The notes under the pieces: generated by a model
Told to the model about the DNA's origin: nothing
Database searches by the model: none
Seen by the model: only the letters and a program-made list of their open reading frames with translations
From: Candidatus Eisenbacteria bacterium
GTDB lineage: Bacteria > Eisenbacteria > RBG-16-71-46 > SZUA-252
DNA length: 50,483 bases
Reading direction: 5' to 3'
Assembly (NCBI GenBank): GCA_005893275.1
Contig: VBOW01000026.1
Span: 1-50,483, forward strand
Program-made: the position numbers and the translations under genes
Part shown: positions 23,451-31,164 of the stretch, in pieces
Numbering within the stretch: position 1 is the first letter of the stretch
Layout: each line of letters opens with the position of its first letter

Positions 23451-26400
23451 TCATCGCCCCCGGGGCGGAGCCGCCCCGCGGCGGCCGCGCCGAGCGTTGG
23501 AATCGCCGAGCGAGGAGCCCGACAGGAGGTCCGCCAGCACGCGCCGGACATCCTCCAGCGTGTACGGCTTTTGCAGGAAAGCAAATCCCTCCTCTTCGAA
23601 CTCGCCTCCGGCAAGCGAGTCCTTTGTGTATCCGGAGACCAGAAGCACCTTCAAGTCCGATTTCATGCTTACGAGGCGCCGCGCCAGATCCACCCCGTTC
23701 ATGCCCGGCATGACGATGTCGGTCACGACCGCGCGGAACGCCCGCTCGTGCTCGTCGAATATCCGGAGCGCTTCTTCGCCGTTGCTCGATTCCAAGACCT
23801 CGTACCCCAGGAAGTGGAGCATATCGCGCGCGAGGGCGCGCACCGCGTCCTCGTCCTCGACGAGAAGAATGGCCCCACGCCCCTTCGCGGGCGGCTCGGA
23901 TTCGGCCGTCGCGGCGCGGGCGCCTGAGGCGCCGGATTCGCCGCTCCGGGGCAGGAGAACCCGAAACGTGCTGCCCCGGCCGAGCCCGCTCTCGACGAGA
24001 ACGTCACCGCCGGCCTGGCGCACGATGCCGTATACGACGCTCAGGCCAAGGCCGGCGCCCTTTCCCTGATCCTTCGTGGTGAAGAAAGGCTCGAAGAGAT
24101 GCGAAAGCACCTCCGAGCCCATGCCGGTTCCTTGATCCGAGACTGCGAGCATGACGTAGGGTCCCGGAAGCAGGCTCGCGGCCTGCTTCGGATCCTCGAG
24201 AGAGACCTGGAACTCGGCCGCCTCGATGATGAGATCGCCCCCCCGAGGCATTGCGTCCCGCGCGTTCACCGACAGGTTCGCGATGACCTGCTCAATCTGG
24301 CCCCGGTCCGCACGGACGCACAGCGACCGCCCGTCCGTCTTGGTGAGGAGGCGGACGTCCGCGCCTATCAGCCGGTGGAGCATGGGCTCCATGCCCCTCA
24401 CCACCTCTCCCACGTCGAGAATCTCGGGCGTCACCACGTCCCGCCGGCTGAACGCGAGGAGCTGCCGCGTGAGGAGGGCGCCGCGAGCGCCCGCCTTCTG
24501 GATCTCCTGGGCACTCCTACGCAGCGGATCGTCGGGAGCCATCCGCGTGAGCATCACTTCGCTGTGACCCTTGATGACGGTAAGGAGGTTGTTGAAATCG
24601 TGCGCCACCCCCCCGGCGAGCTGCCCGACCGCCTCCAACTTCTGCGCGTGACGGAGCTGCGCTTCGAGAGTCTTCCGCTCGGTGATATCGGTCGCGACGC
24701 CCAGCAGGCCGACGACCCGGCCCTCGCTGTCGCGCACCGGCACGTAGTGGCTCTCGAAGGAGACGTCCCCTAGGTCCACGCTCGACGTGAACTCCTCGCC
24801 GGCCAAGCAGCGCTCGACGCTTGCGATCACGTCCGGATAGTCCCCGTACAGGTCGTAGACGGATTTCCCGATCGACTCTCCCTCCAGCCGCCCGAGCCGC
24901 TCGAGCCCCCTGCCCTCGGACAAGGTAAGAATGCCGTCGCGGTCCATCGCGAAGAGCACGATGGGGGAACCCGCGACGACCATCCGCAGGCGCTCCTGGA
25001 CGCTCCGGAGCGTGTGTTCCGCCTCCTTCCGTTCTGTGATGTCGCGCAGGAAGCCGGTGAACACGGGGGGGCCTTCCGAGGAAATTCGCGCGATCGCGAG
25101 CTCGACCGGGAACTCCGAGCCGTCGGCGCGCATGCCGGTGATCTCGATTCGGCGGCCGATCACACTCGCCTCGCCCGTGGCCAGGTGGCGCGCCATGCCG
25201 CGCCGATGTGCTTCTCGAAGCGACGGCGGGATGATGAGCTCCACCATGTCCCGGCCCAGAACGTCCTCCCGTTTCCGCCCGAAGATGCGCTCCGCGGCGG
25301 GATTGAACTCGAGGATCCGCCCCGCGTGATCCATCGAGATGATCGCATCGAGCGCCGCCTCGATCATGGCGCCCTGCCGGGCTTCGCTCTCCCCGAGCGC
25401 CCGTTCCGCCAGGCGACTCACGGTGACGTCGACCATCTCGACGAGGTCGACGCTCTTTCCCTCCATCTCGACGCGTGTCGAGGACACGCGCGCGATCCGC
25501 TCCTTGCCTTCCCGCGTGAGAACGCAGCATTCGATCCGACTGGGCGCCTCGTGCCCCGCGGCCGCCTCGTAGAAGCCCCGGAGGCGCTCCCAGTCATCGG
25601 GGGAGTGCAACGATCGGAGCGAGAGCTTCGCCAGCTCTTGCGGTGAATGCCCCAGCATGCGCTGCGTCGCCGGATTGGCGAGAAGGATTTGGTGGGTCTC
25701 GGGATCGACCATGAGGATCGCCTCGGCGTTCGCCTCGAAGAGGGCGCTGTAGCGAACCTCGGATTGGCGCAACGTCTCCAGGCCGGTCAGGTCCTGAACG
25801 AGGACCATGGCCTCGTGGGGTTTCCCGTCGAGCCCCTTGATGGGAAGCGCGGTCAGGTACAGGACGCCGGATGCGCCCTGGATCGTCATCCTCAGCTCCT
25901 GGTGAGTCACCTCGTTCCTCTCCAAGGCGTGCCGGATCGGGCAGTCGCAGGAGTCCGCGCCCGGCGCTCCTCGACCGAGCCGCGAGCACACCTCGCGGCA
26001 CGGCCTGTCGATCCAGCTCGATCCTTCCCCGCCGGGCGGAAGGAGGACGGCCATCGCCCGGTTGTTCCAGCGAATGGTCCGTGCCTCGTCGGTCACGAAG
26101 ACGAACGTGTCGGTTTGGTTGACGACGGCCGCGAACTTCTGACGCTCGCGGTCCAAGACGCGGAGATGATCGTCGAGTGTCTTGAACCAGCGCTTGTCCC
26201 GCTCCGCTTGGAGGCGGAGCTTCGAGACCTCGCTTCGGCTGATCGCGGTCGACGCCACCATTTCGACCACGGCGACGATCCAGGGGACGGTCTTCGGATC
26301 GCGCGCAACCTCGGCGGAGGACCAGGCGAGCGCCGCCGCGCCGAGCGGCCCCGACTCGGTCGAGAGGAAGAGCGTCCTGGTCGCGTGCCCACCCGGCTTC

Positions 26401-26693
26401 GCGCAGTCCGAAGCCGTCAGATGGGGTCCGCCCCGCCGGATTGCTTCGAGCGCTTCGACCTTGAGGCGCGGGCGCAGGGAGGCTTTGATCTCGGGATCGT
26501 TGGGCGCCCAGTGCTCGCGCAAAGGCGCATCGCCGTCGGCGAGGAAGATCACGGCGGCGTCGGCGCCTGTCCCGCGGCGAAGCAGCTCAAGAGCCTCCCC
26601 GATCGAGCCGTCGAGCGAGCTTGCCTGGAGGATGCGCGGGATCGCCTGGAGGAGGTGGTCCAGGTCTCGCTGCTCGAGCGGATCGTGGGTCAT
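23451..26693 (-). CDS. Hybrid histidine kinase with GAF, four PAS domains and a receiver
   Basis: A 1080-residue sensor with no membrane helix, so probably cytoplasmic. Approximate order: GAF (10-165), PAS (190-305), PAS (312-430), PAS (440-560), PAS (565-680), HisKA with phospho-acceptor His698 (GGVAHDFNNLL), HATPase (SVNARDAMPRGG N-box, VSDQGTGMG, GKGAGLGLSVVYG) and a C-terminal receiver with Asp992 (VTDIVMPGMNG). The first PAS carries a cysteine group (PCREVC then DSCDCPIRH) as in PAS_4 domains that often read CPxCP; metal or redox sensing is possible. No response regulator with an output domain is adjacent, so the partner is unknown. The gene lies 11 bases after the GAF protein, probably cotranscribed. 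Confidence 0.93.
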   Translation of the reverse strand: MTHDPLEQRDLDHLLQAIPRILQASSLDGSIGEALELLRRGTGADAAVIFLADGDAPLREHWAPNDPEIKASLRPRLKVEALEAIRRGGPHLTASDCAKPGGHATRTLFLSTESGPLGAAALAWSSAEVARDPKTVPWIVAVVEMVASTAISRSEVSKLRLQAERDKRWFKTLDDHLRVLDRERQKFAAVVNQTDTFVFVTDEARTIRWNNRAMAVLLPPGGEGSSWIDRPCREVCSRLGRGAPGADSCDCPIRHALERNEVTHQELRMTIQGASGVLYLTALPIKGLDGKPHEAMVLVQDLTGLETLRQSEVRYSALFEANAEAILMVDPETHQILLANPATQRMLGHSPQELAKLSLRSLHSPDDWERLRGFYEAAAGHEAPSRIECCVLTREGKERIARVSSTRVEMEGKSVDLVEMVDVTVSRLAERALGESEARQGAMIEAALDAIISMDHAGRILEFNPAAERIFGRKREDVLGRDMVELIIPPSLREAHRRGMARHLATGEASVIGRRIEITGMRADGSEFPVELAIARISSEGPPVFTGFLRDITERKEAEHTLRSVQERLRMVVAGSPIVLFAMDRDGILTLSEGRGLERLGRLEGESIGKSVYDLYGDYPDVIASVERCLAGEEFTSSVDLGDVSFESHYVPVRDSEGRVVGLLGVATDITERKTLEAQLRHAQKLEAVGQLAGGVAHDFNNLLTVIKGHSEVMLTRMAPDDPLRRSAQEIQKAGARGALLTRQLLAFSRRDVVTPEILDVGEVVRGMEPMLHRLIGADVRLLTKTDGRSLCVRADRGQIEQVIANLSVNARDAMPRGGDLIIEAAEFQVSLEDPKQAASLLPGPYVMLAVSDQGTGMGSEVLSHLFEPFFTTKDQGKGAGLGLSVVYGIVRQAGGDVLVESGLGRGSTFRVLLPRSGESGASGARAATAESEPPAKGRGAILLVEDEDAVRALARDMLHFLGYEVLESSNGEEALRIFDEHERAFRAVVTDIVMPGMNGVDLARRLVSMKSDLKVLLVSGYTKDSLAGGEFEEEGFAFLQKPYTLEDVRRVLADLLSGSSLGDSNARRGRRGAAPPRGR

Positions 26694-26704
26694 CGGCGGC
26701 CGGG

Positions 26705-27187
26705 CTAGGGAGCGCGCCCGAGGCGCTCGCGGGAATGGTAGAGCGAGGCGAGCCAGTCCGCGACCCGTTGCACCTGCATCACGGCACCCTCATCGAAGGC
26801 GGCGACCTGATGGCTGTCGATGTCGATCTGGGCGTAGATCTTCTCGCCGCTCCGGATGAGGATCACGAGCTCGGATCTCGTCTCCGTGCTGCACGCCAGG
26901 TAGTTGCTCACGAGGCGCACGTCGGGGACGTTGATGTTTCGCCGCTCGGCCACGGCCGTGCCGCACACGCCGCGTCCCACGCCGATGAATACGTGATCGG
27001 TGGGCGCCCCGACGAACGGTCCGAGTCTGAGAACGTTGTCAGGGAATAGCTCGTAAATGCCGGTCCAGTGAAACCGTTCGTCCAGGTCGTGCAGGCCGCG
27101 GACGGCCGCGTGAAGAAGGTCCTCGAACGGGACCCCCAACCGATGGCGCGCTTCGAGATCGGCGATGACTCGGTCTGCGTTGTTCAT
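26705..27187 (-). CDS. GAF-domain protein, free methionine-R-sulfoxide reductase-like
   Basis: A single GAF domain of 160 residues. The block GRGVCGTAVAERRNINVPDVR with YLACSTETRSELVILI and QIDIDS is the fRMsr signature. Cys75 and Cys99 are 24 residues apart, the same spacing as Cys94 and catalytic Cys118 of the E. coli enzyme as I recall it; the position of the third Cys (Cys84) is His65 here. It may reduce free methionine-R-sulfoxide with two rather than three cysteines, or act as a redox-sensing GAF protein for the kinase that follows 11 bases later. The ATG at 27187 begins a complete GAF fold; upstream frame has no similarity. Confidence 0.78.
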   Translation of the reverse strand: MNNADRVIADLEARHRLGVPFEDLLHAAVRGLHDLDERFHWTGIYELFPDNVLRLGPFVGAPTDHVFIGVGRGVCGTAVAERRNINVPDVRLVSNYLACSTETRSELVILIRSGEKIYAQIDIDSHQVAAFDEGAVMQVQRVADWLASLYHSRERLGRAP

Positions 27188-27411
27188 TCGCTCTGCGCCC
27201 CATGGTTCCACGCCGGTGGTCCGACCCGCGGGCTTGGCCGTGCGGACCCGCATCGGGATAGATCGGCGGAGGAGGCGGCTTCTTGATGCCGGGGTGGGTC
27301 GGGGGTTCCGCGAATCGTGGGAAGGGAGCTGCCTCCAGGTCGTTGAGGACAATGCCGTTACGGTCTTCTCCCCCCCAGCTCCGGGCGCTCCTGGCCGATC
27401 GGCAGTAAGTC
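27188..27411. other. Intergenic region, 224 bases
   Basis: Separates the double ATPase from the GAF gene, both on the minus strand. It contains the 10-base palindrome GCCGATCGGC near 27395-27406 and a run of C, but no clear terminator or promoter. Open frames crossing it lack coding character. Confidence 0.3.
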
Positions 27412-29151
27412 CTAGGCGGGGCGCGCGGCCGCGGCGCCCCGCGCCACAGCCTCAAGCAGGGTCTCCTCGTCGCGGACGGGGGAGGGCCCGAGAAGCCCAG
27501 CAAGGCGGAGCACACGCTCGAGCCGTATGAAATCGGGCCCGGGAATTCGCGCGCGGGCGAGCAGGCGATCATCCCGCAGCAGGAGAGCCGTCGGGCCCTG
27601 GACGTTCGCCGACCCCGATCCATCTTCCCCGCGAAGGAGCACGACGACGCGGCTCGCGACCGCGGCGACGAAGCCGAGATCATGGCTCGCGAGGAGGACA
27701 GTCCGCCCGCGCTCGCGGAGGCCGTCGATGACCTGGGCCAGCGCGCGCCTTCCTTCCGGGTCGAGCCCCGCGGTTGGCTCGTCGAGGAGCAAAATCTGAG
27801 GAGGCTCGACGATCACGCCGGCCAGCGCCGCGCGGCGCTTCTCTCCCTCGCTCAGCGAAACCGGGAATCGGTCCGCGAACCTCTCGGGATCCAGCCCGAC
27901 CTCGACCATCGCCCTCCGCGCGCTTCTCGCGCGTTCCTCCGCCGGGATCCCCTCGACCCAGAGCAGCGCGGCCACGTCCTCGAGGACCGTCCGTCCGAAG
28001 AGCTGCCGCTCGGGGTACTCGAGCGCGAGCGCGACCGGCCGCACGCGCGGGATCGCCGGCCTCTCGCGGTGGATCGTGCCCTCCGTCGGATCGACGATGC
28101 CGGCAGCAAGCTTGAGCACGGTGGTCTTGCCGGTTCCGCTCCGGCCGATGAGCGCGACGACCTCGCCGCGCCCGACTTCGAGATCCAGCCCCGACACGAC
28201 GGGTGCGCCGCGCCTCCCGCCGGGCGACCACGCCACGCCGCGCATCGTGAGCGCGGCCGGGCCACGGGGGGCGGGGATCGGGTCCGGCTCCGGCAGGGGC
28301 CCCGCCGATGCGGCGTGGGTCTCGCCGGCCCTTCCGGCGTCGCCCAACACGCGCTCCACCTGCTCCGCGTCCGCGGACAAGGGCCCCGACCAGCGCCCTT
28401 CGATCGCGAGGAGCGCCGAGACCCGGAGCGCGAGCGGGAAAGGAACGCCGGTGCTCTCGATCACGGCGCGCGGCGTGAGCTGGGAGGCGGGTTTGAGCGC
28501 GCGCGCCTCGAGGACGTAGAGGGTCTCTCCGGGAAAGGGCGGGTCGGCCTCCTGGTGGGTACGGATGACCGCGCGACCGCACGCGATCGCCTCACCGACG
28601 ATCCTCCCTTCCAGCTCGCGTCGCGAGCCCGGGTCCAGGTGCGCGAGGGACTGATCGAGCAGCAGGCAGCGCGGCGCCGCGGCGAGCGCCGCGGCGAGGA
28701 GGGTTCGGGCCTTCTCCCCGGCGCTCAAGCTCTGGGGCGGGCGCCCCGCAAGGGACGACAGGCCGAAGTCCCGGAGCGCCGAGGCGGTCCGATCTCGAAC
28801 GTCGCGCGGGGTGATCCCGAGCGATTCGAGGCCGAACGCGATCTCGGCCTCGACGGTGTCCGAAAGGAATTGAGGATCGGGCTCTTCGAAGATCGCCGCG
28901 ACGTCGGGCCAGAGCGAGCGACCTTCCGGACCGACGCGCACCTCCTCCCCGCCGAGGAGAAACCGGCCCGTGGTCGGCGGAGCGAGCCCCGCGAGAATCC
29001 GGATGAGGGCGGTCTTGCCGGAGCCGTTTTTTCCGAGGAGCAGGTGGCTCGACCCGGGAGGAGCCGCGAGGTCCACCGGTCCCACGAGGAATGCGGCGCC
29101 GCCGCCGGGAGGAGGGGGCGCCGCGTATGCGACGCCTTCCAGCCGGATCAC
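27412..29151 (-). CDS. Fused double ATPase of an ECF-type ABC transporter
   Basis: A 579-residue protein with two ABC ATPase domains, like EcfA1 and EcfA2 fused. First half: Walker A GKNGSGKT (40-47), PDPQFLSDTVEAEIAFG, signature LSAGE (142-146), LLLDQSLAHLD and switch His199. Second half: Walker A GRSGTGKT (336-343), YPERQLFGRTVLEDVA, signature LSEGE (433-437), LLLDEPTAGLD and a later SHD. The catalytic Glu of the first Walker B is replaced by Gln167 while the second is intact (Glu458), suggesting one working ATP site. No EcfT or S-component gene is in the window. It lies 49 bases downstream of larC, so nickel or another cofactor-related substrate is a reasonable guess. GTG start at 29151. 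Confidence 0.88.
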   Translation of the reverse strand: MIRLEGVAYAAPPPPGGGAAFLVGPVDLAAPPGSSHLLLGKNGSGKTALIRILAGLAPPTTGRFLLGGEEVRVGPEGRSLWPDVAAIFEEPDPQFLSDTVEAEIAFGLESLGITPRDVRDRTASALRDFGLSSLAGRPPQSLSAGEKARTLLAAALAAAPRCLLLDQSLAHLDPGSRRELEGRIVGEAIACGRAVIRTHQEADPPFPGETLYVLEARALKPASQLTPRAVIESTGVPFPLALRVSALLAIEGRWSGPLSADAEQVERVLGDAGRAGETHAASAGPLPEPDPIPAPRGPAALTMRGVAWSPGGRRGAPVVSGLDLEVGRGEVVALIGRSGTGKTTVLKLAAGIVDPTEGTIHRERPAIPRVRPVALALEYPERQLFGRTVLEDVAALLWVEGIPAEERARSARRAMVEVGLDPERFADRFPVSLSEGEKRRAALAGVIVEPPQILLLDEPTAGLDPEGRRALAQVIDGLRERGRTVLLASHDLGFVAAVASRVVVLLRGEDGSGSANVQGPTALLLRDDRLLARARIPGPDFIRLERVLRLAGLLGPSPVRDEETLLEAVARGAAAARPA

Positions 29152-29200: not shown

Positions 29201-30382
29201 TCACATCGTGGTCCGCGCGCTCTCGTGGAGGAAGGAGCGGACCTCGTCCATGACTTCGACCAGGGGACGCCCCGCCGCCTGCGCGAGACGCTTCAGGTCC
29301 TCGTATTCCGGAACTCGCCGTTCCTCGCCCGAAGGGAGGACGGCCGTCTTCACGCGGATTCGCCCCAGCGGCGTCTCGACCTCCGCGATCGTGCGCGTGA
29401 GCTCCACCCGCCCTTCGTGACGCACGCGCACGCCGATCGTCGTTGATTCCGCGAAGAGCCGCTCGATCACGGCATGGGCGGACGAGGGCTCGCAGATCGC
29501 CGTGACGAGGACGCCCGGGCGCCCCTTCTTCATCTGCACCGGGGTGAGAAAGACCTCTCGCGCCCCGCTCTGGAAAAGACTCTCCGTGAGGTGGCCGTAG
29601 AGCTGCGGGTTCATGTCGTCGATCGTCGTCTCCAGCACCTCGACCGCCCCCTCCGCCTCCGGCGTCAGCGGATCGCCGAGCAGGGCCCGCACGATGTTCG
29701 GGCGTTCGGCGAGATCGCGCGAGCCCGCGGCGATGCCCGTTCGACGCGGCCGGATCCCGACGGGCTCGCCGATCGTCTCGCAGAGGGTCCGGAGGAGCGC
29801 CGCGCCGGTGGGCGTGGTCAGCTCGGCTTCGATCTCGGTCATCCGGACGGCCACGCCCTCGAGAAGGCGCATCGTCGCCGGCGCGGGGACCGGGAGCGTT
29901 CCGTGGGCCGCCTGGACGAAGCCCCTCCCTTGGGGAATCACCGAGGCGTGGCATCGATCGACCCGGAGGATTTCGAGCGCCCATGCGGTGCCCACGATGT
30001 CGACGATGGCATCAAGCGCGCCCACCTCGTGGAAATGGACCTTTTCCAGGGTTGTCGCGTGCACTTCGGCTTCGCAGCGCCCCAGGAGCTCGAAGGCGCC
30101 CAGCGCCCGGCGAAGCACGCGCGGCGGCAGAGCGCCCCCTTCCAGCATGCGGCGGATTTCCGTGAAGTGCCGGTGGGACCGGCTTTCCTCGACCTCCACG
30201 TGGAGCTGAAGGGCGTCGAACCCGTGACGCTTCACGGTGGTCGAGCGGAGCTCGATTCCTTCGAGAGGGAGCGAGCGCAGCTTGCGCTCGATCTCGGGAA
30301 GCGGCGCGCCGAGCGCCACCAACGAGCCCAGGATCATGTCCCCGCTCGCGCCGCCGACGCAGTCGAAGTAGACGATGCTCAC
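29201..30382 (-). CDS. larC: Nickel-pincer cofactor nickel insertase LarC
   Basis: Inserts nickel, in a CTP-dependent reaction, into pyridinium-3,5-bisthiocarboxylic acid mononucleotide to complete the nickel-pincer cofactor of lactate racemase and related enzymes. The 393-residue protein starts MSIVYFDCVGGASGDMILGSL and contains KVHFHEVGALDAIVDIVG, PQGRGFV, HGTLPVPAPAT, ELTTPTGAALLRTL and ETTIDDMNPQLYGHL, all typical of LarC. It is one continuous frame, unlike Lactobacillus plantarum, where larC1 and larC2 are joined by frameshifting. GTG at 30382 overlaps the larB stop as GTGA. larA and larE are not in the window. Confidence 0.95.
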   Translation of the reverse strand: MSIVYFDCVGGASGDMILGSLVALGAPLPEIERKLRSLPLEGIELRSTTVKRHGFDALQLHVEVEESRSHRHFTEIRRMLEGGALPPRVLRRALGAFELLGRCEAEVHATTLEKVHFHEVGALDAIVDIVGTAWALEILRVDRCHASVIPQGRGFVQAAHGTLPVPAPATMRLLEGVAVRMTEIEAELTTPTGAALLRTLCETIGEPVGIRPRRTGIAAGSRDLAERPNIVRALLGDPLTPEAEGAVEVLETTIDDMNPQLYGHLTESLFQSGAREVFLTPVQMKKGRPGVLVTAICEPSSAHAVIERLFAESTTIGVRVRHEGRVELTRTIAEVETPLGRIRVKTAVLPSGEERRVPEYEDLKRLAQAAGRPLVEVMDEVRSFLHESARTTM

Positions 30383-31164
30383 GCCGATCTCCCCGCGCGG
30401 GACCTGAGCGCGATCACGCCGGCGGCGTAGCCCGCTCCGAACCCGTTGTCGATGTTCACGACCGTGACCCCGGCGGCGCAGGAGCTGAGCATCGCGAGGA
30501 GCGCCGCCAGACCCCCGAACGAGGCCCCGTAGCCGGCGCTCGTGGGCACGGCGATCACCGGTCGGTCGGTGATGCCGCCGACCACGCTTGCGAGCGCGCC
30601 CTCCATGCCGGCCACGACTACCACCGCGGAGGCCCGCCTGAGCGCCGGGACGTGCTTCAAGAGGCGGTGGATCCCGGCCACCCCCGCATCGTACACCCGG
30701 CCCACCGGCAGGCCCATGAATTCAAGGGTGACCGCGGCTTCCTCGGCGACCGGCAGGTCGGATGTCCCCGCGCTCACGACGAGCACACGAGCTGCGCGCC
30801 GCCGGGCCCCGCGACGACGACGCCCCGGGTTCTGAACGACCACCGTCCGTGCCGCTTCGTTCCAGGTCGCGGCGCGGCCGAACTCGCCGACCATCGCCCG
30901 GGCCTGCTCCGCGCTCGCGCGTGTCGCGAGCAGCCGGCCGCTCTTCGCAAAGATCGCGCGCGCGATCGCGAGGCACTGCGCCCTGGTCTTGCCCTGGCAG
31001 AGGATGACTTCGGGAAGCGCCTGGCGGATTCCTCGGTGGTGATCCACGGTTCCCGCGCCGATCGATTCGAACGGAAGGTGGGCGATCGCTTCGAGCGCCT
31101 GGCGCGTGGTGACGCGTCCCCGGCGTACGTCGAGGAGAAGCTTACGGAGCCGCGCAGGATCCAT
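30379..31164 (-). CDS. larB: Nickel-pincer cofactor biosynthesis protein LarB
   Basis: First enzyme of nickel-pincer cofactor synthesis: carboxylates the pyridinium ring of nicotinic acid adenine dinucleotide and cleaves the phosphoanhydride. The 261-residue protein has the LarB N-terminal domain (HRGIRQALPEVILCQGKT) and a PurE-like C-terminal domain (VLVVSAGTSDLPVAEEAA, DAGVAGIHRLL, VVVVAGMEGALASVVGG, PVIAVPTSAGYG, VVNIDNGFGAGYAA). The ATG at 31164 lies 23 bases inside the end of dusB; its stop overlaps larC. Confidence 0.95.
   Translation of the reverse strand: MDPARLRKLLLDVRRGRVTTRQALEAIAHLPFESIGAGTVDHHRGIRQALPEVILCQGKTRAQCLAIARAIFAKSGRLLATRASAEQARAMVGEFGRAATWNEAARTVVVQNPGRRRRGARRRAARVLVVSAGTSDLPVAEEAAVTLEFMGLPVGRVYDAGVAGIHRLLKHVPALRRASAVVVVAGMEGALASVVGGITDRPVIAVPTSAGYGASFGGLAALLAMLSSCAAGVTVVNIDNGFGAGYAAGVIALRSRAGRSA

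Follow-up and report, generated by a model that had tools for sequence, protein, structure and literature searches.

In L. delbrueckii, the closest described case, replacement of the Walker B glutamate by glutamine in EcfA alone (E169Q), in EcfA' alone (E171Q) or in both subunits severely impaired growth under conditions that made uptake essential, ATP hydrolysis did not rise above background and folate was not transported, according to the sections of PMC10368641 dealing with these mutants. The same sections describe the double mutant, also treated in part of PMC7755397, as closed with ATP in both sites. Another section of PMC10368641 reports ATP in EcfA and ADP in EcfA' for wild-type ECF-FolT2 in the presence of ATP, and that paper leaves open which of the two ECF ATP sites fires and in which sequence. 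Among exporters, a missing Walker B glutamate is often accompanied by H-loop changes (excerpts of PMC7756269), and for ABCB1/ABCB11 a site without the glutamate is described as tolerable provided that ATP occlusion is avoided, which happens where residues close by make ATP binding weaker (PMC7544095). Described hallmarks are the ECF-specific Q-helix motif X-P-D/E-X-Q-hydrophobic, which follows the Q-loop of the ATPases (excerpts of PMC6828968), and the Arg-centred motifs of the T units (excerpts of PMC3246461). A natural glutamine in the Walker B motif of an ECF ATPase was not found among the papers listed by searches of the open-licence PMC literature, judged mainly from titles and the beginnings of abstracts.

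The window analyzed here, i.e. the whole stretch of 50,483 nucleotides from a Candidatus Eisenbacteria genome, encodes a fused double ATPase (Table 1), whose relatives carry a valine at the aligned position of its GTG start. The PF00005 (ABC_tran) profile matched two stretches of the protein with an E value of 8.6e-45; Walker A, signature and Walker B motifs occurred in both halves, which are 36% identical over 187 columns. Direct reading of the open reading frame confirmed the claim of the earlier note that the first Walker B motif is LLLDQS, with Gln167 in place of the catalytic glutamate, and the second LLLDEP; the span 28648-28660 given there for the change contains the Gln167 codon, but the motif extends further, to 28665. 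The signatures of the two halves, LSAGE and LSEGE, differ from the usual LSGGQ. Each composite ABC site combines the Walker motifs of one half with the signature supplied by its partner half, so Gln167 should face LSEGE and Glu458 should face LSAGE. The predicted structure of the protein had a mean pLDDT of 81, with values below 50 at the Q-loops (residues 90-93 and 379-384).

Table 1. Features of the double ATPase, its neighbouring genes and its putative partners (window positions unless a contig of the same genome, G000, is given)
Feature	Position	Strand	Basis and remarks
Fused double ATPase, EcfA1-like and EcfA2-like half, 579 aa, GTG start	27412-29151	-	ORF list; PF00005 twice
Half 1 Walker A GKNGSGKT, residues 40-47	29011-29034	-	Sequence
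Half 1 Q-loop Glu89 (Gln in solved EcfA1)	28885-28887	-	Alignment; Glu in 6/6
Half 1 ECF Q-helix motif EPDPQF, residues 90-95	28867-28884	-	Sequence; P91, D92, Q94 and F95 invariant in six
Half 1 signature LSAGE, facing the EcfA2-type site	28714-28728	-	Sequence; site pairing from general ABC knowledge
Half 1 Walker B LLLDQS, residues 163-168	28648-28665	-	Sequence
Gln167 codon CAG, in place of catalytic Glu, half 1	28651-28653	-	Gln in 6/6 family sequences
Half 1 switch His199 (Ser in G004, Arg in G007)	28555-28557	-	Sequence
Half 2 Walker A GRSGTGKT, residues 336-343	28123-28146	-	Sequence
Half 2 Q-loop Glu378 instead of Gln	28018-28020	-	Alignment; Glu in 6/6
Half 2 ECF Q-helix motif YPERQL, residues 379-384	28000-28017	-	Sequence; invariant in six
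Half 2 signature LSEGE, facing the Gln167 site	27841-27855	-	Sequence
Half 2 Walker B LLLDEP, residues 454-459	27775-27792	-	Sequence
Catalytic Glu458 codon, half 2	27778-27780	-	Glu in 6/6
Half 2 switch His490	27682-27684	-	His in 6/6
LarC	29201-30382	-	PF01969, E 6.2e-132; directly upstream of the ATPase in 6/6 genomes
LarB	30379-31164	-	NF033503, E 4.1e-80; upstream of LarC
Divergent EcfT	G000:C14:53571-54308		Homologue of the family alignment; below the Pfam CbiQ cut-off
BioY, S component	G000:C47:11588-12004		Other contig than the ATPase; E 1.1e-38

The protein looks like an ECF-type double ATPase, as had been proposed, judging from the best NCBIfam models of its halves and from the Q-helix motifs. 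Half 1 scored best with TIGR04520 (EcfA1, 114.5 bits), followed by the cbiO model TIGR01166 (113.8 bits) and EcfA2 (100.3 bits), and half 2 scored best with TIGR04521 (EcfA2, 167 bits; EcfA1, 129.8 bits). Since these values are far below the curated scores of 315 bits (TIGR04520) and 330 bits (TIGR04521), the double ATPase is not filed as an equivalog of either model. The EcfA1 model alone also fails to single it out, because half 2 (129.3 bits in this genome-wide comparison; half 1, 114.1 bits) was outscored by 11 further ABC domains encoded in the genome. The ECF assignment therefore leans on the partners described below and on the Q-helix motif, which is found in both halves and kept in all six proteins of the family. 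A PDB search with half 1 returned 9kym_A, 4huq_B and 4hlu_D as the three best rows, all named EcfA1, although 4huq_B is also called 'EcfA 2' in some entries. Among the best 60 of 130 matches to the whole protein, the top rows were ABCB1 chains; 9kym_A and 4huq_B aligned best to half 1, and 4zir_A, 4mki_B (EcfA2), 2yz2_A and 4hlu_A (TM_0222) aligned best to half 2. On these comparisons half 1 resembles EcfA1 and half 2 resembles EcfA2.

The rarity of the glutamine was evaluated within the same genome (G000, 99.65% complete), where the PF00005 profile search returned 47 ABC_tran matches. Walker B motifs were tallied in the 37 matches with an E value of 6.2e-14 or better, leaving out the 10 weaker ones: 33 ended in Asp-Glu, and one each in Ser-Glu (L166), Asp-Asp (L145), Arg-Ser (L167) and Asp-Gln, the last being half 1 of the double ATPase. 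As separate observations on this genome, L145 and L153 (C14:105050-107500) are adjacent ABC proteins with Asp-Asp and Asp-Glu Walker B motifs, respectively, an arrangement suggestive of a heterodimeric exporter in which one site is degenerate, and L167 and L168 (C29:21870-23250) belong to a fused double ABC ATPase in which neither Walker motif of the second half has kept the consensus.

Whole-protein relatives at E <= 1e-70 occurred in six of the 47 searched genomes of the phylum, all belonging to the family of the genome under study (f1). The five other distinct sequences are 82, 70, 54, 54 and 51% identical to the double ATPase and two of them match named Candidatus Eisenbacteria records (L008, L009); the six proteins represent three genera, its own included, of a single family of Candidatus Eisenbacteria. 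In the copy of G007 (L086, 1313-2746) the linker is much shorter, and the C-terminal stretch common to the other five is missing. The earlier note had reasoned that glutamate in all close homologues would point to a recent mutation or a sequencing error; the alignment gave the opposite result, all six proteins having Asp-Gln in the first half but Asp-Glu in the second. The codon of Gln167 is CAG in five sequences and CAA in one, a silent change, and both Glu458 and His490 of half 2 are present throughout. Comparison with G003 yielded dN/dS ratios of 0.26 for half 1 and 0.11 for half 2, and comparison with G001 ratios of 0.26 and 0.14, respectively; the five remaining pairs gave nearly equal ratios for both halves, with dS of about 0.75 to 1.2. 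These values indicate that half 1 is under purifying selection. In the phylogenetic tree the six first halves formed one group with 100/100 support, and under midpoint rooting the split between first and second halves was weak (38/85).

Since the glutamine is present in all six proteins, tolerates a silent codon change, lies in a half under purifying selection and marks a single fully supported group, the change at position 167 is old and has been kept. A sequencing error or a recent neutral mutation, contradicted by glutamine in all five other assemblies, by the silent codon in one of them and by the grouping of the first halves, has a negligible probability. In none of the six proteins do both Walker B motifs end in the catalytic glutamate, as they do in a canonical two-site ECF motor; each lacks it at one site only (Gln167 versus Glu458), which corresponds to the pattern of a degenerate ATP site. 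The Gln167 variant is real, conserved and mechanistically telling, and a one-site reading of it is plausible.

The comparison was extended to ATPases outside the family, which were few and chosen by similarity to the query. All 27 readable loci among 29 (L036 and L038 were left out) carried Asp-Glu in Walker B, as did a further 31 compared rows, two of which represent the same G049 protein. The glutamate is thus kept in the adjacent pair of G013 (L097), the single ATPase of G019 (L077), the G049 fusion and the archaeal and Dehalococcoidia fusions, and the statement that the Eisenbacteria protein is unlike typical EcfA1/A2 pairs holds against the EcfA1/A2 sequences compared. Other deviations were observed in these proteins: the switch histidine is a glutamine in G013 EcfA1 and in half 1 of the G049 fusion, and the Q-loop residue is an aspartate in four aligned archaeal first halves (L010, L011, L013 and L018), L011 also showing the histidine to glutamine change. 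In all these cases the second halves are canonical, and the Dehalococcoidia fusion is canonical in both halves. Across the other ECF-like pairs (L097, L090, L010, L011, L013 and L018), it is the first or A1-like half that deviates and the second that is canonical.

A further change, which the earlier note did not mention, accompanies Gln167: the Q-loop glutamine is replaced by glutamate in both halves of all six double ATPases (Glu89 and Glu378). Q-loop glutamate was also found in other ABC domains of the genome, namely L143 and L154, with an Asp-Glu Walker B, and L166, with Ser-Glu, and so on its own it is no mark of a dead site. One might suppose that the carboxylate was swapped, the catalytic base having moved from Walker B to Glu89, so that the half-1 site would still be catalytic. 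The invariance of both the Walker B glutamine and the Q-loop glutamate in the six proteins agrees with such an exchange, as does the pairing of Q-loop glutamine with Walker B glutamate in the ECF-like proteins of G013 (same class, family f6), G049 and Dehalococcoidia (L015). However, the Q-loop glutamate is also present in half 2, which retains its Walker B glutamate, and in L143 and L154 with their normal Walker B, and the four archaeal first halves combine a Q-loop aspartate with a normal Walker B glutamate; an acidic Q-loop residue is therefore not tied to the Walker B glutamine. In addition, Walker A, signature and switch histidine, described by the earlier note as intact in both halves, are so in the protein of the window, but the first switch histidine is lost in two of the five relatives, being Ser in G004 and Arg in G007, whereas His490 is kept in all six; this loss suggests that the half-1 site does not hydrolyse ATP. 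The structural model is of low confidence in just the stretches that bear on the geometry of Glu89. Taken together, we consider a relocated base unlikely and favour a half-1 site that would be non-hydrolysing.

The T unit expected of an ECF importer was then sought. PF02361 (CbiQ/EcfT) returned no match in the genome of the window at E <= 0.001, and at E <= 10 it gave six weak matches across the nine genomes of the family, none above the cut-off. Four of these (G001, G002, G006 and G007:C18) correspond to one conserved gene, which proved to be an EcfT, and the notion that EcfT is absent and the system hence not of the ECF type was dropped. When an alignment of three of its members was used as query, a homologue was recovered in all nine family genomes, incomplete in two of them (two pieces on two contigs in G003; a start at base 4 of the contig in G005). 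The gene adjoins truA in all nine genomes (partial in two), and in the genome of the window, where its region is L049 1498-2337, it lies between an lnt-like gene and truA, these neighbours being named from their translations. A truA neighbourhood is also found for ecfT of Firmicutes.

A profile of seven family members matched solved EcfT with an E value of 3.4e-6 and with both Arg-Gly motifs in register, so that the genome contains an EcfT with the two Arg-centred motifs of a group II ECF system. The predicted model of this protein had a mean pLDDT of 66. Among the best 50 of 90 Foldseek matches, the first 11 rows were chains of ECF transporters, seven of them with E <= 0.001. VIA-align ranked 8bms_C first (Z 10.0, rmsd 6.6, 215 aligned residues), a score below the level trusted by the tool for helical bundles, since helical models reach such Z values by chance; the unrelated MurJ came second (Z 8.7 over 71 residues), followed by further ECF chains. 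The Pfam CbiQ model misses the EcfT of this Eisenbacteria family. Three of the nine family genomes (G002, G005 and G008, which are 81, 94 and 78% complete) have the EcfT but no detectable double ATPase, the search for the latter giving only generic ABC matches. In other families, an ATPase beside EcfT was detected by blastp at E <= 1e-6 only in L077 (G019) among the six stretches L074-L079.

As for the S component, BioY was detected in five of the nine family genomes and was not seen in G002, G003, G004 and G008, of which G003 and G004 possess the double ATPase. In the genome of the window it is encoded on another contig, away from the A and T genes as in group II ECF systems. PF12822 gave only weak matches below the cut-off, the best being 4.4e-4 in G007 and 0.23 in the genome under study. 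With genes for both EcfT and BioY present in the genome, the likely setting is a shared-module ECF system whose genes are dispersed; the lack of linkage between the ATPase and EcfT genes and the three genomes that have EcfT but no detectable double ATPase speak against it.

The genes around the ATPase are of a different kind. LarB and LarC are genes of the nickel-pincer cofactor, and the order LarB-LarC-ATPase is kept in the family, LarB being present in five of the six genomes and the contig of G007 ending in LarC. On the 3' side of the ATPase (23451-27352, minus strand), a GAF-domain protein and a 1080-residue ORF, apparently a PAS-containing hybrid sensor kinase from its translation, follow one another as they do in G001 and G003. 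The constant position of LarC immediately upstream raises the question of whether, instead of driving EcfT and BioY, the double ATPase serves LarB/LarC or some other soluble task. The separate location of EcfT and BioY would fit such a role, as would the three genomes with EcfT and without the double ATPase and the first ranks of the Foldseek search with the full-length ATPase model, where the top full-length rows were other fused double ABC proteins. Yet both halves carry the ECF-specific Q-helix motif and have EcfA1 and EcfA2 as their best NCBIfam models, and the LarA N domain (Lar_N, PF09861) was found in none of the six genomes with the double ATPase, which argues against a Lar role. A function outside ECF transport thus appears rather unlikely.

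The same neighbourhood might instead reflect the substrate, which would be nickel or another metal recognized by an S component that has diverged beyond the reach of Pfam. The lar operon of Lactobacillus contains a nickel ECF system, and the conserved LarB-LarC-ATPase order fits a metal substrate. Against nickel, the CbiM/NikM S component (PF01891) that characterizes NikMNQO/CbiMNQO systems was found in none of the six genomes at E <= 1, and the S component actually detected, BioY, speaks against a metal, although the case of EcfT shows that Pfam misses divergent members here. We regard a metal substrate as quite improbable, and biotin as the better candidate.

The best explanation as a whole, to which we assign a probability of about 0.6, is an ECF motor in which the EcfA1-type site would hold ATP and the EcfA2-type site would drive the cycle. 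The fused EcfA1-like/EcfA2-like ATPase would be the motor of a shared-module ECF importer, with the divergent EcfT beside truA and at least one S component, BioY, as likely partners. Site 1, formed by the Walker A and B motifs of half 1 and the signature of half 2, would hold ATP with slow or absent hydrolysis, because the general-base glutamate is a glutamine; site 2, formed by the Walker motifs of half 2 and the signature of half 1, has kept Glu458 and His490 and would do the work. Binding of ATP at both sites would close the dimer and expel the S component, and hydrolysis at the EcfA2-type site alone would reopen it, with one hydrolysis per cycle. Glu89 and, in some members, the loss of the switch histidine may relax the Gln167 site enough to keep ATP from locking it, in the way that weakened ATP binding makes the missing glutamate tolerable in the ABCB1/ABCB11 case. 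From the genes, we infer that the A, T and S components would assemble into one complex, that hydrolysis would occur at one site, that biotin would be transported and that the accompanying residue changes would compensate for Gln167. The assignment made by the earlier note, a half-1 site structural rather than catalytic, appears plausible, although the glutamate that has replaced the Q-loop glutamine in this half might have a bearing on it.

The published data on L. delbrueckii bear on this reading in two ways. Since wild-type EcfA keeps ATP and EcfA' ADP in the sections of PMC10368641 cited above, the natural glutamine occupies the type of site in which ATP stays bound there, with the same polarity. 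The glutamate to glutamine exchange, presented by the earlier note as the classic laboratory change that slows hydrolysis, is indeed well known, but 'slows' is too mild, as the single EcfA E169Q mutation abolished ATPase activity and transport in those sections. One-site function is therefore not automatic, the natural glutamine protein needs compensation, and the one-site reading is more surprising than initially thought. As a tentative and rather doubtful extension, the family-wide glutamate to glutamine change in the EcfA1 Walker B and the reciprocal glutamine to glutamate change in the Q-loop might let an otherwise ATP-locked site cycle, the site serving as a loose clamp without catalysis or else using a carboxylate supplied by the Q-loop. 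By the same extension, a drift of the EcfA1 half to a non-hydrolysing role may have occurred in several lineages (archaeal Q-loop aspartate; histidine to glutamine in G013 and G049), which would settle the order of hydrolysis that the L. delbrueckii work leaves open.

The importers of this Eisenbacteria family, seemingly for a vitamin, may thus run on a single working ATP site, and the family offers a natural motor without the EcfA1 base, together with a short list of accompanying residues, to be set against a laboratory motor killed by the same change. Comparison of the natural protein with the L. delbrueckii mutant would show whether one or two hydrolysis events are needed for ECF transport and how a site without hydrolysis avoids becoming locked. 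For structural work, the protein would also provide an ECF module that is half-trapped by nature.

Compared with known systems, the putative Eisenbacteria importer is like the group II ECF transporters of L. delbrueckii (ECF-FolT2, ECF-CbrT), in which EcfA, EcfA' and EcfT are combined with exchangeable S components, in its EcfA1-like and EcfA2-like CbiO-type domains with Q-helix motifs, in its EcfT with two Arg motifs and in a BioY encoded elsewhere. It differs from them in the fusion of the ATPase domains in one chain, in the glutamine of the first Walker B, in the Q-loop glutamate of both halves and in an EcfT too divergent for Pfam, and its natural A1 glutamine is the very change that inactivates the L. 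delbrueckii motor in the mutant sections of PMC10368641. With the degenerate-site exporters (BSEP/ABCB11, MRP1 and CFTR, as well as TM287/288 and BmrCD) it shares one composite site without the Walker B glutamate next to a canonical one and H-loop changes in some members; unlike them, it is an importer-type protein whose mechanism would be expulsion of the S component, and its replacement is glutamine rather than the Asp, Met or Ser found in exporters in the excerpts of PMC7756269. Finally, like the archaeal fusions (L010-L014, L017 and L018) and the G049 protein, it carries two ECF-like halves in one polypeptide with a partly deviant first half, whereas those proteins keep the glutamate in both Walker B motifs.
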